35,644 bases of DNA from an uncultured Phenylobacterium sp. (lineage in GTDB: Bacteria; Pseudomonadota; Alphaproteobacteria; Caulobacterales; Caulobacteraceae): contig NZ_CADEGK010000019.1 of the NCBI RefSeq assembly GCF_902826855.1, positions 1-35,644 on the forward strand, written 5' to 3'. The position numbers were made by a program, and so were the translations under genes. Below are positions 25,783 to 31,920 of the stretch, piece by piece. The notes below the pieces were generated by a model, which was given only the letters and a program-made list of their open reading frames with translations, was not told the DNA's origin and searched no databases. Numbering within the stretch: the first letter of the stretch is position 1; each line of letters starts with the position of its first letter.

Positions 25783-27108
25783 TTAGACGGGTTTCACCAG
25801 GACGATCTTCTTCTTGCCCGCGGCCAGCTTCACGGCGCCGTCCACGAGGTCGGCGGTCGTGACCGTGCGGTTGGCGTCGGTCTCCTGGTGGTCGTTCACT
25901 CGCAGCCCGCCACCCTGGGCGAGGCGACGCGCCTCACCCTTGGACCCGGCCAGCCCAGCGCCCACGGCAAGGTCGGCCAGCACGATACCGGTGGCCAGGT
26001 CGCCGGCAGCCACCTCGTAGGTCGGCAGGTCGTCGGAGAGCTTGCCCTCCTCGAACGCCGCCCGCGCCGCGCCGTCCGCCGCCTGGGCCGCCTCGGCGCC
26101 GTGCAGCATCCGCGTGGCTTCGTTGGCGAGCACCTTCTTGGCCTCGTTGATCTCCGCGCCCGGCAGGGACTCCAGCCGTGCGATGTCGTCCAGCGGCAGG
26201 TCGGTGAACAGGCGCAGGAAGCGGCCGACGTCGGCGTCCTCGGTGTTGCGCCAGAACTGCCAGTAGTCGTAGGGCGAGCGCATGTCGGCGTTCAGCCACA
26301 CCGCCCCGCCCACCGTCTTGCCCATCTTCTGGCCCGACGCCGTCGACAGCAGCGGCGTGGTCAGCCCGAACGCGGGCTTGTGGTCCACCCGGCGGATCAG
26401 CTCCACGCCGTTGACGATGTTGCCCCACTGGTCCGACCCGCCCATCTGCAGGACGCAACCGTGGGTGCGCTCCAGCTCCAGGAAGTCCACCGACTGCATG
26501 AGCATGTAGTTGAACTCGAGGAAGGTCATCGGCTGTTCGCGATCCAGCCGCGCCTTGACGCTGTCGAACGCCAGCATGCGGTTGATCGTGAAGTGCACGC
26601 CGTAGTCGCGCAGGAACTGGACGTAGCCGAACTTCGAGAGCCACTCGTCGTTGTCGACCATGACCGCGTCGGTCGGGCCATCGCCGAAGGCCAGGAACTT
26701 CGCGAAGGTGTGCTTGATCGAGGCGATGTTGGCCTGGATCTGCTCGTGGGTCAGCAGCGGGCGCTGGCCCTCCTTGTCGGTCGGGTCGCCGACCTTCGTG
26801 GTGCCGCCGCCCATCAGCACGATGGGCTTGTGCCCGGCCTGCTGCAGCCGGCGCAGCATCATGATCTGGATCAGATGACCGACGTGCAGGCTGGAGGCTG
26901 TCGCGTCGAAGCCGATGTAGGCCGTGACGATCCCCGACGCGGCCGCGGCGTCAAGCTCCACCGGATGGGTGATCTGATGGATGTAGCCACGCGCCTGCAT
27001 GGTCTGCAGGAAGGTCGACTTGAACGCGGCTTCGGACATCTCGTCAGGATTCTCTCTCGCAGTTGCGGCGGCCTCTAGCACAGCGGCGGCGGACGTTTCG
27101 AGGGACAT
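25783..27108 (-). CDS. tyrS: Tyrosyl-tRNA synthetase
   Basis: Class I aminoacyl-tRNA synthetase that charges tRNA-Tyr. 441 residues from the ATG at 27108, with the HIGH-type motif HVGH (75-78), GSDQWGN (225-231), the KMSKS-type motif KMGKT (261-265) and a C-terminal S4-like RNA-binding domain (about 375-441). ATG 27108 has GGAG 6 nt upstream. An internal ATG at 27039 ([10 protein letters not shown]) matches where many homologues begin but has only a weak ribosome-binding site. The extra 23 residues ([19 protein letters not shown]) are low-complexity, so usage remains open. The upstream leader carries a Tyr-Tyr micro-ORF and competing hairpins. It is divergent from anmK; bcp follows downstream across a palindromic repeat. 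Confidence 0.96.
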
Positions 27109-27112
27109 GGCA

Positions 27113-27214
27113 GGCTCCGTTGTCGTGAGGAGCCGGCGCGTGGGTCTTCAGGAACAGGTGCGCCGGCCGGGAAGGGCAGGCGCGAGGGATCGGTCGCCTG
27201 CGTCAGGGCAGGCG
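27113..27214 (-). promoter_or_regulatory. Candidate tyrosine-responsive leader of tyrS: chain of mutually exclusive hairpins
   Basis: On the tyrS strand, segment A CGCCTGC (27214-27208), inside the micro-ORF, pairs with B GCAGGCG (27201-27195). B can instead pair with C CGCCTGC (27182-27176), an exact copy of A. GCGCC overlapping C (27183-27179) can pair with GGCGC inside D (27164-27160). D GCCGGCGC (27167-27160) pairs over 8 bp with E GCGCCGGC (27139-27132). GGCTCC (27134-27129), overlapping E, pairs with GGAGCC (27118-27113), which contains the tyrS ribosome-binding site. Neighbouring pairs exclude each other. There is no T-tract, so control of translation rather than termination is the better guess. 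Confidence 0.55.
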
Positions 27215-27250
27215 GTAATAGCGGCCGGGAAGGCGAGCGCGTCCGATCAT
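27203..27250 (-). CDS. Candidate leader peptide of tyrS (15 residues, tandem Tyr codons)
   Basis: A micro-ORF, ATG 27250 to TGA 27203-27205, encoding MIGRARLPGRYYRLP. The adjacent Tyr codons (TAT TAC, 27220-27215) stand directly before hairpin arm A, whose bases form the last codons. It lies upstream of and on the same strand as tyrS. No Shine-Dalgarno is visible, but a promoter-like TTGACT at 27287-27282 would put the transcript start at or next to the ATG, so it could be a leaderless ORF, as for the rhizobial trpL leader. Tandem codons for the amino acid handled by the downstream gene are the hallmark of attenuation leader peptides (compare the Phe-rich leader before E. coli pheST). Chance occurrence cannot be excluded without homologues. 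Confidence 0.55.
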   Translation of the reverse strand: MIGRARLPGRYYRLP

Positions 27251-27257
27251 GGCGGGC

Positions 27258-27287
27258 TAGCTACCCGGCGCGCGTCGTGGCAGTCAA
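27258..27287 (-). promoter_or_regulatory. Candidate tyrS leader promoter
   Basis: TTGACT (27287-27282; 5 of 6 consensus bases) is followed after 18 bp by TAGCTA (27263-27258), a poor -10 match. The expected start is about 27251, at the micro-ORF ATG. The -35 lies only 6 bp from the anmK start, so the two divergent promoters must overlap. Confidence 0.35.
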
Positions 27288-27293
27288 GCGGCC

Positions 27294-28400
27294 ATGCTCG
27301 TGCTGGGATTCATGACCGGGACCTCGCTCGACGCCGTCGACATGGCGGTGCTGGAGACCGACGGCGAGACGATCGACCGCTTCGGCCCGGCCGGCGAGCG
27401 CAAGTTGAGCGACGCGGTGCGAAACGTCATCGTGGAGGCGACCCAGCAGGCCCTGGCCTGGCCGCGCGGGGCGCCGGAACCGCCGATCTTCGCGCACGCC
27501 GCCGAGATGGTGGCTGAGGAGCACTACAGCGCGGCCGAGGCGTTCCTGGCCGCCAACGGCCTTTCGTGGCCGGACATCGACCTGATCGGCATGCACGGCC
27601 AGACGGTGCTGCACGAGCGGCCCAAGGATGGCTCCCCGGGCCGGACCGTCCAGCTGGGCGACGGGGCGATGCTGGCGAGGCTGAGCGGACGGCGGGTGGT
27701 CTACGATTTCCGCTCGGCGGACGTGGCGGCTGGCGGGGAGGGCGCGCCGCTGGCGGCCATCTACCATCTGGCGCGGGCGCGGAAGTCCGGCCTTAAGGCG
27801 CCGGTGGCCGTGCTCAACCTCGGCGGCGTGGCCAATGTCACCCTGTGGCGCGGCGGCAGCGACATCGAGGCTTTCGACACCGGCCCCGGGAACGGCATGA
27901 TCGACCTCCTGGTCCAGGCCCGGGGCGCCGGCCGCTTCGACAAGGGCGGCGCCTACGCAAGCGTCGGCCGCGCCGACGAGGCGGTGGTACGCGCGCTGCT
28001 GGCCCATCCCTACTTCCAGGCCCCGCCGCCCAAGTCGCTCGACCGCCACGACTTCTCGCTGGAGCCGCTGGGGCATGCGCAGCTTGAGGACGCCGCCGCC
28101 ACCCTGGTGGCGTTCATGGCCGAAGCGGTGAAGCTCGGCCTGGCGACCGCCGATCCCGCGCCTGCCCAGATCATCGTCTGCGGCGGCGGGCGGCACAACC
28201 CGGAGATCATGAAGGCGCTGGCCGCCCGCCTGCCGATCCCGGTGAAGACCGCCGAGGACCACGGCTGGCGTGGAGACGCCATCGAGGCCGAGGCCATCGC
28301 GTACCTGGCGGTCCGCAGCTTCAAGGGCCTGCCGATTTCCTTCCCGAAGACCACTGGCGTCGCCCGACCCGCGACCGGCGGACGCCTCGCGAATCCCTGA
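27294..28400 (+). CDS. anmK: Anhydro-N-acetylmuramic acid kinase
   Basis: 368 residues of the AnmK sugar-kinase family. The start LGFMTGTSLDAVDMAVLETDG is the family hallmark (usually GLMSGTSLDGxD), with IGMHGQTVLH, NLGGVANVT and DTGPGNGMIDLL following. It opens and phosphorylates 1,6-anhydroMurNAc to MurNAc-6-phosphate, letting the cell reuse murein turnover sugar. No MurQ etherase gene is in the window. Start ATG 27294 gives the conserved N-terminus; there is no strong ribosome-binding site. The gene is divergent from tyrS across 185 bp, and the family is often found next to tyrS in alphaproteobacteria (recalled, not checked). Confidence 0.95.
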   Translation: MLVLGFMTGTSLDAVDMAVLETDGETIDRFGPAGERKLSDAVRNVIVEATQQALAWPRGAPEPPIFAHAAEMVAEEHYSAAEAFLAANGLSWPDIDLIGMHGQTVLHERPKDGSPGRTVQLGDGAMLARLSGRRVVYDFRSADVAAGGEGAPLAAIYHLARARKSGLKAPVAVLNLGGVANVTLWRGGSDIEAFDTGPGNGMIDLLVQARGAGRFDKGGAYASVGRADEAVVRALLAHPYFQAPPPKSLDRHDFSLEPLGHAQLEDAAATLVAFMAEAVKLGLATADPAPAQIIVCGGGRHNPEIMKALAARLPIPVKTAEDHGWRGDAIEAEAIAYLAVRSFKGLPISFPKTTGVARPATGGRLANP

Positions 28401-28443: not shown

Positions 28444-28476
28444 GAACGCCGATCACTTTCGTAGTCGAGGATGACC

Positions 28477-30291
28477 ATGGCTGACGACAAGCCGGAGATC
28501 ACGGGCGCTGACGACCTCGGGTTCGACCCGAACGCCCTGCGCGAAAAGTACCGCGCCGAGCGGGACCGGCGCCTGCGGCCCGACGGCAGCGCCCAGTACG
28601 TCGATATCTCGAAGTTCGCCCACTACCTCGACGACCCCTACGTCGAGCGGGTCGAGCGCGCGCGCATCACGGACGACGTCGAGGTCGTGGTGGTCGGCGG
28701 CGGCTTTGGCGGCCAGCTGGCGGCGGCCCGCCTGCGGGAGGCCGGCATCGAGGACATCCGCATCATCGAGAAGGGCGGCGACTTCGGGGGCACCTGGTAC
28801 TGGAACCGTTACCCCGGCGCCCAGTGCGACATCGAGAGCTACATCTACCTGCCGCTGCTGGAGGAGGTCGGCTACCTGCCGGTCGAGAAGTACTCCCGCG
28901 CCCCTGAGATCCTGCGCCACAGCCGCGCCATCGGCGAGAAGTTCGACCTCTACAAGGGCGCGCTCTTCCAGACCGAAGTCACCGCCATGCGCTGGGACGA
29001 GGACCGCTCGCGCTGGACCGTCGAGACCAACCGCGGCGACGCCCTGAAAGCCCGCTTCGTGGTCATGGCCAACGGGCCCCTTCACCGCCCGAAGCTGCCC
29101 GGCATCCCCGGCGTCGAGACCTTCAAGGGCCACTCGTTCCACACCAGCCGCTGGGACTACGACTACACCGGCGGCGACTCGAACGGCGGCCTCACCAAGC
29201 TGAAGGACAAGCGCGTCGGGATCATCGGCACCGGGGCCACGGCCGTGCAGTGCGTGCCGCACCTGGGCGAGTGGGCCAAGGAGCTCTACGTCTTCCAGCG
29301 CACGCCCTCGTCCATCGACGTGCGCGCCAACCGACCCACCGATCCGGAGTGGGCGCGGAGCCTCACGCCGGGTTGGCAGCAGGAGCGGATGGACAACTTC
29401 AACGCCCTGGTCTCGGGCGGATTCGCCGACAAGGACCTTGTCCAGGACGGTTGGACCGACATCATCGGCAACATCATGCTGCTGGCTCGCAAGAAGATGG
29501 AGGCCGGCGAGGTCGTGGAGAACCCGGCCGAGCTGATGCAGCTGGCCGACTTCAAGAAGATGGAGCAGGTCCGCGCCCGGGTCGACGAGGTGGTCAAGGA
29601 TCCCAGCAAGGCCGAGGCGCTGAAGCCCTGGTACAACCAGTTCTGCAAGCGTCCCTGCTTCCACGACGAGTACCTGGACACCTTCAACCGTTCGAACGTC
29701 GAGCTGGTGGACACCCAGGGCAAGGGCGTCGAGCGCATCGACGAGACCGGCATCTGGGCCAATGGCAAGCACTACGAGATCGACTGCCTGATCTACGCCA
29801 CCGGCTTCGAGGTCGGCACCGACTTCACCCGCCGCTCGGGCTACGAGCTCTACGGCCGCGGCGGCCAGACGCTGACGCAGAAGTGGAAGAACGGCGCCTC
29901 GACCCTGCACGGGATGTTCACCCGCGACTTCCCCAACTGCTTCATCGTGTCGAACACCCAGTCGGGCTTCACGGCCAACTTCCCGCACATGATCAACGAG
30001 CAGTCCAAGCACCTGGCCTATGTGATGAAGCAGGCGCTCGACCGGCAGGTGCGCACGCTGGAGCCCACGCGGGAGGCCGAGGCCGCCTGGGTCCAGACGA
30101 TCATCGACACGGCCCTGATGCGCGAGGACTTCCTCAAGGAGTGCACCCCCGGCTACTACAACAACGAGGGCAATCCCGAGGCGACCGCCAAGCAGAACGG
30201 CTCCTATGGCGCCGGCCCCGTGGCCTTCGTGAAGCTGCTGGAACAGTGGCGCGAGGCCGGGACGCTCGAGGGGTTGGAGCTGAACGCCTGA
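28477..30291 (+). CDS. Flavin-containing Baeyer-Villiger-type monooxygenase
   Basis: 604 residues from ATG 28477, where GAGG ends 6 nt upstream; ATG 28471 is too close to that site. FAD-binding GGGFGG is at 74-79, followed by [15 protein letters not shown] (104-118), typical of cyclohexanone and phenylacetone monooxygenases. The Baeyer-Villiger fingerprint is [12 protein letters not shown] (216-227), with Asp where many have Pro, and the NADP-binding Rossmann motif GIIGTGATA is at 248-256. Such enzymes insert oxygen next to a ketone using NADPH and O2, making esters or lactones. An N-terminal ~60-residue extension precedes the first Rossmann fold, as in steroid or long BVMO types. The substrate cannot be named. 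Downstream is an AbgT-like transporter, and no dehydrogenase or esterase partner is adjacent. Confidence 0.9.
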
Positions 30292-30378: not shown

Positions 30379-31920
30379 GTGGGGGATGTTGCTCAGCCTG
30401 TAAGGCGAGGAGGCCGGCTGCTCGACGTGGTCGAGCGGCTGGGCAACGCCTTGCCGGACCCGGTCTTCATCTTCATCTGGCTCATCGCCGCGCTCGTTGT
30501 GGTCTCCACGCTCGGAGAGACCTTGGACTGGCAGGTCGTCAATCCGGTGACGGGCGAGCTCCTGCGGGCGCAAAGCCTGGCGAGTGAAGGCAACGTCCGG
30601 AAACTCTTCACCGAGATGGCCCGAACCTACACCGGCTTCGCGCCGCTCGGGTTGGTGTTGACCATCGTGCTCGGGGCGGGTGTGGCCGAACGAAGCGGGC
30701 TGATGGCCGCGCTGCTCCAGGGCAGCCTGGCGCGGGCGCCGGCACGCCTGTTGATCCCCGCGACATTTCTCATCGGGCTGTTGTCGACCCATGCGGTCGA
30801 CGCCGCCATTCTGGTCTATGTGCCGCTCGCGGCCGTTGCTTTTGCTGGCGCCGGGCGACACCCGATCGTCGGGCTGGTGGCGGCGTTCTCGGGCTGCGGA
30901 ACGGGCCTTGCGGGCAACCTGGCGCCCGGCCAGTACGATGTCCTGATCCTGGGCATCACGCAGACGGCGGCGCGCCTGATCGACCCGCAGTGGACGATGA
31001 ACCCGCTCGGAAACTGGTGGTTCATCGTGGCCGTCGCGGTCTCTTTCACGCTGACCGCGTGGGTGGTGATCGAGCGGGTCGTGGTCCAGAGACTCGGCGT
31101 CTGGGTCGACGGAATCGGGGCGAGGCCCGAGCCCCTGACGCCAGAACAGCGGCGAGGCCTGGCGGCGGCGGGCGCTGCGACCCTCGTGGCGGTCCTCTGC
31201 GCAACGGCTCTGGTGCTCTGGCCGGGCTATGCGCCACTCTATGACGGCGAGGCGGCCCCCGCGCAGCGCCTCTCACCGCTCTTTCAGAGCCTGGCTGCGC
31301 TGATCGCGATCCTTTTCTTCGTCACCGGCTGGGCCTACGGCGCCGCGGCGGGAACAATTCGCAGTCACCGGGACGTCGTGGAGGGCATGGTCCGAGGGCT
31401 GGAGCCAATGCTGCCCTATCTGGTCCTTGTCTTCTTCGCAGCGCACTTCGTGGCGATGATCGGCTGGTCCAATCTCGGACCGATCCTGGCGGTCTCCGGC
31501 GCGGATGTGCTGAGGTCGATGAACGCGCCGCCGGCCCTCATGCTGCCCGCCCTCGCGACGGCGTCGGCGTGGCTCGACTTCCTGATCGCCTCGGGGTCGG
31601 CGAAATGGGCCGCCGTGTCGCCCGCCGTGGTCCCCATGCTCATGCTGCTGGGGATATCACCCGAGATGAGTACGGCCGCCTACAGGATCGGCGACACGGT
31701 CACCAATCTCATCTCCCCCCTGAATCCCTATGTCGTGCTGACGCTGATCTACTGCCGCCGGTGGGTGGCGGAGTTCCAGCTCGGCGCGCTCATCGCGCTG
31801 CTCCTGCCTCTGGCGATGGCGTTCTACGTGGTCGGAATAGCCCTCACGGTCGGCTGGATCGTCCTGGACCTGCCGGTAGGGCCGGGCGCGACAGTGGCCT
31901 ACAGCCTGCCGGCCCGCTGA
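30379..31920 (+). CDS. AbgT-family transporter (p-aminobenzoyl-glutamate transporter-like)
   Basis: About 513 residues, strongly hydrophobic with roughly 12 membrane segments, beginning near LLDVVERLGNALPDPVFIFIWLIAALVVVS, the typical AbgT start. Other family blocks are TGFAPLGLVLTIVLGAGVAERSGL, FLIGLLSTHAVDAA, GNLAPGQYD, SGSAKWAAVSPAVVPMLMLLGISPE and YRIGDTVTNLISPLNPY. Members import p-aminobenzoyl-glutamate (E. coli AbgT) or export sulfonamides and other antimetabolites (MtrF, YdaH). No abgAB hydrolase genes are present, which leaves the substrate open. The start is unsure: GTG 30379 has no ribosome-binding site, while GTG 30427, closer to the first helix, lies 13 nt after GAGGAGG. It lies 87 bp after the monooxygenase and may be co-expressed. 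Confidence 0.92.
   Translation: MGDVAQPVRRGGRLLDVVERLGNALPDPVFIFIWLIAALVVVSTLGETLDWQVVNPVTGELLRAQSLASEGNVRKLFTEMARTYTGFAPLGLVLTIVLGAGVAERSGLMAALLQGSLARAPARLLIPATFLIGLLSTHAVDAAILVYVPLAAVAFAGAGRHPIVGLVAAFSGCGTGLAGNLAPGQYDVLILGITQTAARLIDPQWTMNPLGNWWFIVAVAVSFTLTAWVVIERVVVQRLGVWVDGIGARPEPLTPEQRRGLAAAGAATLVAVLCATALVLWPGYAPLYDGEAAPAQRLSPLFQSLAALIAILFFVTGWAYGAAAGTIRSHRDVVEGMVRGLEPMLPYLVLVFFAAHFVAMIGWSNLGPILAVSGADVLRSMNAPPALMLPALATASAWLDFLIASGSAKWAAVSPAVVPMLMLLGISPEMSTAAYRIGDTVTNLISPLNPYVVLTLIYCRRWVAEFQLGALIALLLPLAMAFYVVGIALTVGWIVLDLPVGPGATVAYSLPAR

Follow-up and report, generated by a model that had tools for sequence, protein, structure and literature searches.

Our analysis points to a ribosome-mediated attenuator upstream of tyrS in Phenylobacterium that would sense charged tRNA-Tyr through a short leader peptide, act on the Shine–Dalgarno (SD) site of tyrS and be accompanied by an internal promoter, P2. 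We consider this explanation as a whole probable and its sensing component, the reading of Tyr codons, very likely. Comparison of sequences reveals a Tyr-Tyr ORF at a nearly fixed site, together with conserved and mutually exclusive helices that extend up to the SD. In the model that we favor, transcription from an upstream promoter, P1, would begin at the AUG of the leader ORF or immediately beside it. A shortage of Tyr-tRNA would make a ribosome stall on the Tyr codons and cover arm A of the leader RNA, whereupon arms B and C, and D and E, would pair, E would release the SD and translation of long TyrS would follow. With Tyr-tRNA plentiful, the ribosome would finish the leader ORF, C would pair with D and E would mask the SD. 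P2, which lies within an extension of the tyrS coding sequence, would probably supply a basal level of short TyrS outside the switch.

A Tyr-Tyr leader ORF upstream of tyrS

In the window, by which we mean the whole stretch of 35,644 nucleotides of Phenylobacterium DNA analysed, the leader ORF lies on the minus strand between tyrS and the divergent gene anmK (Table 1). The initial annotation of this DNA had described a 15-codon ORF with adjacent TAT and TAC codons, a series of RNA arms and a stem on the SD; the ORF and its codons were confirmed, and all of the arms and the SD stem could be located in the sequence. Rfam models returned no match at the gathering score in the window, T-box included. 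Farther along the window, on the plus strand, are a gene for a flavin monooxygenase-like protein (28471-30291; best NCBIfam model pentalenolactone D synthase, 843.9 of the 1100 bits needed) and, adjoining it, one for an AbgT-like transporter (30379-31920; 380.6 of the 753.55 bits needed), both matches falling below the model cut-off.

Table 1. Features of the tyrS leader region in the window; z values are from the own-versus-foreign pairing test on 72 leaders, and promoters are predicted
Feature	Position	Strand	Details
anmK	27294-28400	+	divergent from tyrS
Promoter P1	27259-27287	-	-35 TTGACT 27287-27282; -10 GTAGCT 27264-27259; 17-nt spacer
Leader-peptide ORF MIGRARLPGRYYRLP	27203-27250	-	15 codons; ATG at 27250, TGA ending 27203
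5' arm GATCGG	27243-27248	-	partner B'; z -8.4; 88.8% of cells paired
Adjacent Tyr codons TAT TAC	27220-27215	-	in leader ORF
Arm A CGCCTGC	27208-27214	-	partner B; z -7.6; 84.4% of cells paired
Arm B GCAGGCG	27195-27201	-	partner A or C
Arm B' CCGATC	27188-27193	-	partner 5' arm
Arm C GCGCCTGCC	27175-27183	-	partner B or D; B:C z -3.4, C:D z -3.9
Arm D GGCCGGCGC	27160-27168	-	partner C or E; D:E z -2.0 only
Arm E GCGCCGGCTCC	27129-27139	-	partner D, or SD via 3' part GGCTCC; E:SD z -7.6
SD (GGAG) plus CC, pairing with E	27113-27118	-	6-bp stem GGCTCC:GGAGCC
TyrS N-terminal extension	27040-27108	-	long start ATG 27108; 23 codons; in related leaders too
Probable internal promoter P2	27073-27101	-	-35 TCGAAA 27101-27096; -10 CTAGAG 27078-27073
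tyrS, tyrosine--tRNA ligase	25783-27108	-	TIGR00234, 368.7 bits; inner start 27039

Conservation in close relatives had been named at the outset as a check on the proposal, and it extends through the genus and into a second family. A search of 101 Phenylobacterium genomes gave a tyrS match in 96 and, with the partial matches in G074 and G091 left out, 94 upstream regions for inspection. A Tyr-Tyr leader ORF is kept upstream of tyrS in 89 of them, by a rule that calls for an ORF of 13-18 codons located 33-39 nt after TTGAC with Tyr-Tyr in place; these ORFs have 15-17 codons and begin about where transcription should start. The exceptions are two genomes with Tyr-Cys (G029 and G057), one without Tyr (G082), one with no leader found in the inspected region before tyrS (G075) and one (G036, locus L091) in which an insertion of ~110 nt with inverted repeats separates the P1 -10 from an intact Tyr-Tyr ORF, MIGPAPLTGRYYRLRS. 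With named genomes added, and the unrelated ORFs L038 and L041 removed from 102 candidates, 100 distinct leaders were available for comparison. Tyr-Tyr is present in 96 of the 100, at codons 11-12 in 93 and at 12-13 in 3, and is encoded by TATTAC in 89, TACTAC in 6 and TATTAT in 1; the stop codon is TAG in 60 leaders, TGA in 22 and TAA in 18. One leader, L167, has lost both Tyr codons and a recognisable SD and retains the P2 motif.

A tRNA synthetase can repress its own mRNA, as that encoded by thrS does in E. coli, and by this precedent the leader RNA might be bound by a protein, for example TyrRS, or act in trans as a small RNA, with the Tyr codons incidental. The strong nucleotide conservation of the leader is compatible with such a role, and the attenuator small RNA rnTrpL provides a second precedent in the portion of PMC7298713 consulted. 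However, the near-universal Tyr-Tyr pair is maintained while its codons vary synonymously, the stop codon varies and the frame stays, and we regard protein binding or a trans-acting RNA as a quite improbable explanation. Sensing by translation of the Tyr codons is the reading that we retain.

To follow the element beyond the genus, we used a covariance model built from 79 leaders (alignment A1). The model matches 193 of 299 family genomes, distributed over 14 of the 22 genera, with a cut-off of E<=0.001; at the looser E<=0.01, 57 of 299 genomes of the order match. Fifty of these 57 order-wide loci were inspected: tyrS lies alongside in 44, of which 42 have a Tyr-Tyr upstream ORF, and the six matches that lack a nearby tyrS are all weak (E 7e-4 to 0.0075). 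Twelve of the 44 belong to the genus; outside it, the Tyr-Tyr ORF is found at 30 of 32 inspected tyrS loci and the other two retain one Tyr (Tyr-Cys in L227, Tyr-Arg in L234). The leader is also present in Caulobacter and Brevundimonas, and in a second Caulobacterales family, whose TyrS is ~59-64% identical over the compared stretch, the Tyr-Tyr ORF occurs at 9 of 10 tyrS loci. A class-wide element was considered and rejected: 8 of 385 genomes matched, of which one is the window's own genome; the seven foreign matches are weak (best E 2.9e-4) and had no tyrS nearby by tblastn. Within what the search filters can detect, the element seems confined to Caulobacterales.

Alternative pairings of the leader RNA

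The initial annotation proposed alternating pairings and a search for covarying stems. We compared how well each arm pairs with its own partner and with the partners from other species, in 72 leaders that have both a recognised SD and Tyr-Tyr. Own partners were most strongly preferred in A:B, E:SD and a helix absent from the initial annotation, GATCGG (27248-27243) with CCGATC (27193-27188), which is among the best-supported of all; the preference was smaller in B:C and C:D (Table 1). Control pairs outside the model gave z values of -2.1 (A:C), +1.0 (B:D), +1.7 (A:SD), +1.0 (5' arm:SD) and 0.0 (5' arm:C), and D:E at -2.0 is not better than the A:C control. The predicted alternation thus gains own-versus-foreign matching for A:B, B:C, C:D and E:SD, and weakly for D:E.

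Alignment A1 was obtained from 86 non-redundant leaders by removing four without Tyr-Tyr and the divergent L013, L163 and L185. The non-stalled structure has 88.7% of its cells paired on this alignment, against 83.2% with shuffling and 31.5-43.4% when slid, and 69 cells changed on both sides, against 25.2 in shuffles (a number reached in 0 of 500); these cells fall in 9 pairs, against 6.8 in shuffles (reached in 42 of 500). For B:C, 80.8% of cells are paired (77.0% shuffled) and 19 are changed on both sides (11.0 shuffled), with such changes in only 2 pairs, no excess over shuffles. An RNAalifold consensus alone contains 5 pairs, a low yield that may be explained by the alternation of pairings and the superimposed ORF.

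We also modelled the states of the switch by equilibrium folding with an assumed ribosome footprint, in 85 leaders with a recognised SD and Tyr-Tyr. With a ribosome at the Tyr codons, the leader of the window folds into B:C and D:E; placing the ribosome at the stop codon, or omitting it, gives C:D and the stem on the SD. Across the 85 leaders, the mean change in pairs from the finished to the stalled state is +4.65 for B:C, -4.22 for C:D, +3.06 for D:E and -2.81 for E:SD. Shifts of more than one pair have the expected direction in 49 leaders and the opposite one in 11 for D:E, and in 54 and 5, respectively, for E:SD. In six rounds with shuffled arms, the D:E and E:SD shifts disappear; the B:C shift mostly persists, because arm B is covered by construction. 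The computed folding therefore swaps pairings in the way first proposed, and fails to do so with shuffled arms, consistent with mutually exclusive RNA structures that would be selected by the position of the ribosome.

The computed effect is uneven across species. A strict joint criterion for the switch was failed by 41 of the 85 leaders. Openness of the SD, tested in 98 of the 100 leaders, 11 of which lack an SD by the rule used, rises in the stalled state from a mean of 0.10 to only 0.19; it increases by more than 0.2 in 18 of the 87 leaders with an SD and decreases by that much in one. The small change in computed SD exposure, the failures of the strict criterion and six leaders without SD masking, described below, argue against a uniform on/off mechanism across species.

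GC-rich sequence folds readily, and from one sequence alone it could not have been decided whether the short ORF and the hairpins had arisen by chance in a GC-rich stretch. The controls and comparisons speak against this. Sixty-three tyrS upstream regions failed the leader rule and, with L091 set aside on account of its displaced leader, just one of the remaining 62 (L050) held a short Tyr-Tyr ORF. Upstream ORFs with Trp-Trp or three Trp codons were found at none of 20 trpS loci in the genus, and one with three Phe codons at 1 of 15 pheS loci (L274, on the reverse reading), in a scan that placed the gene start at position 1500 of every locus, an inaccurate position for the few shorter ones. 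Together with the species-specific pairing, the loss of the switch in shuffled arms and the conservation in the genus, which refutes a chance origin, these counts leave that reading a negligible probability. On the trpS and pheS counts we also rejected the idea that leaders of this type are general in the genus and precede those two genes as well.

Two predicted promoters and the probable output of the proposed switch

The spacing of P1 is nearly invariant. In all 100 leaders, the start codon of the leader ORF lies 35-38 nt from the -35 (search range 28-45 nt) and 6-9 nt from the end of the -10, the position of this hexamer being set by the fixed 17-nt spacer. Transcription from P1 would on this spacing start at or beside the AUG of the leader ORF. 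A scan for E. coli-type promoters found none. The motif TTGACTGCCA[CT]G, at 27276-27287 on the minus strand of the window, is kept in 85 of the 100 leaders and is longer than the -35 box explains; the window's own genome contains it once. A regulon for the conserved 12-mer TTGACTGCCAYG was considered and rejected, with one site in that genome.

Several features of this region were observed in passing. L187, in which the divergent gene, judged by eye, is not anmK, retains the motif TTGACTGCCA[CT]G as well. At L053, L197, L198, L200, L203, L204, L206, L207, L209, L210 and L212 the -35 lies within a palindrome, TTGACnnnnGTCAA, that could be a regulator site. The P1 -10 region GTAGCTAGC (window 27256-27264) is nearly palindromic and could serve transcription towards anmK too.

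The GGAG that arm E would mask serves the long tyrS start at 27108; the initial annotation did not note this, nor a second start at 27039 behind a probable promoter. The match to TIGR00234 begins at TyrS residue 34, and the 23-residue extension is outside the family model. Within 110 nt of the inner tyrS start, 85 of the 100 leaders carry a TGNTANN motif, and in 68 of these 85 its distance from CTCGA is constant. The motif takes the form TGCTA in 66 leaders and TGTTA in 16. CTA and TTA are rare in the tyrS stretches examined (17 of 2774 leucine codons), yet they are kept in this motif. A few of the 85 (L011 and L015, for example) have no extension, and their match may be something else; L110, L142 and L168 have the CTCGA motif and no in-frame ATG for the extension. 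At Brevundimonas loci that have no leader, GTGCTACAC precedes the inner tyrS start. Judged by its sequence and the alphaproteobacterial -10 consensus, P2 is likely to be a real internal promoter for the inner start at 27039, so that tyrS probably yields two forms, a long one subject to attenuation and a short one that escapes it.

Since the probable promoter P2 lies downstream of the switch, a fraction of the tyrS transcripts may escape it. This amends the initial model, which is otherwise largely supported: that model had counted a transcript start downstream of 27203 against itself, and the probable P2 start is such a start. At the extreme, virtually all tyrS mRNA would come from P2, leaving the P1 leader with little influence on TyrRS in most conditions, a scheme that would suit both the frequency of the P2-like motif and the similar motif at leader-free Brevundimonas loci. 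But the leader is retained in 89 of 94 genus genomes, and in a clade with small genomes (L171 and kin) most members carry the leader and lack the P2 motif; we judge such a marginal role for the leader to be very unlikely.

How the leader would act on tyrS is less certain. No intrinsic terminator was found in 26950-27350, the region searched for the signature of classical transcription attenuation, and the last arm forms an SD-masking hairpin with the stem GGCTCC:GGAGCC. Since that region yielded no terminator and the last arm is complementary to the SD, we favor translational control of the start at 27108, and we think it rather likely that SD masking is the main output. Six leaders (L083, L115, L120, L139, L169 and L175) keep the upstream ORF and arms A-D and lack the anti-SD, the SD and the long start; in the same six, a P2-like -10 directly follows arm D. 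Their output must differ or have been lost. They would fit a transcriptional output of the same Tyr-codon sensor: without a stalled ribosome, transcription would end early, before tyrS, by Rho-dependent or another non-canonical termination, and the anti-SD stem would have a secondary role. The best-known attenuators do act on transcription (PMC7298713, in the part consulted). Against such an output here stand the absence of terminator-like sites in 26950-27350 and the species-specific match of arm E to the SD (z -7.6), and we consider it unlikely, albeit the most serious of the alternatives to SD masking.

Relation to known leader-peptide systems

Leader-peptide attenuation of synthetase genes is already known; the tyrS variant and the probable internal P2 are new here. 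Leader-peptide attenuators at pheST in gamma-proteobacteria, and candidates at trpS and leuS in Streptomyces, are described in the sections of PMC1262725 consulted, and there too a short ORF rich in cognate codons precedes the synthetase gene and is accompanied by alternative RNA structures. Those, however, are described as classical attenuators with terminators, whereas the present element concerns tyrosine and tyrS, no terminator was found and the SD is masked. In Caulobacter crescentus, a member of the same order, a putative small leader CDS likewise precedes a synthetase gene on the trpS mRNA, but the synthetase is a different one and the text examined contains no RNA switch (PMC4117421). 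The main text of that article does not mention tyrS, although its datasets may list a Tyr-Tyr upstream ORF, and the examined part of PMC4287350 does not name tyrS. The leaderless trpL attenuator of Sinorhizobium meliloti, as presented in excerpts of PMC7298713 and PMC10117765, is also an alphaproteobacterial leader peptide, with an ORF at the extreme 5' end of its transcript; unlike the tyrS leader, it senses Trp and acts on trpE(G) through termination of transcription. A literature search, with subscription papers mostly outside its coverage, returned no description of a tyrS leader peptide of such a kind.

T-boxes read uncharged tRNA directly. They too sense tRNA charging to control synthetase genes, but they need no leader peptide, whereas the tyrS leader has one and gave no Rfam match in the window. 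T-boxes include an SD-masking ileS type of Actinobacteria that acts on translation (PMC1262725, sections consulted).

On the broadest form of the proposal, an order-wide Caulobacterales element in which a leaderless Tyr-Tyr peptide controls masking of the tyrS SD, P2 is nested and the balance between two TyrRS forms depends on charging, our judgment is evenly balanced. If the proposal is true, a tyrosine leader-peptide attenuator would operate on tyrS in the group that contains Caulobacter, a standard laboratory bacterium. Its output seems to act on translation rather than on termination, and the probable P2 suggests that charging may govern a choice between two forms of TyrRS.
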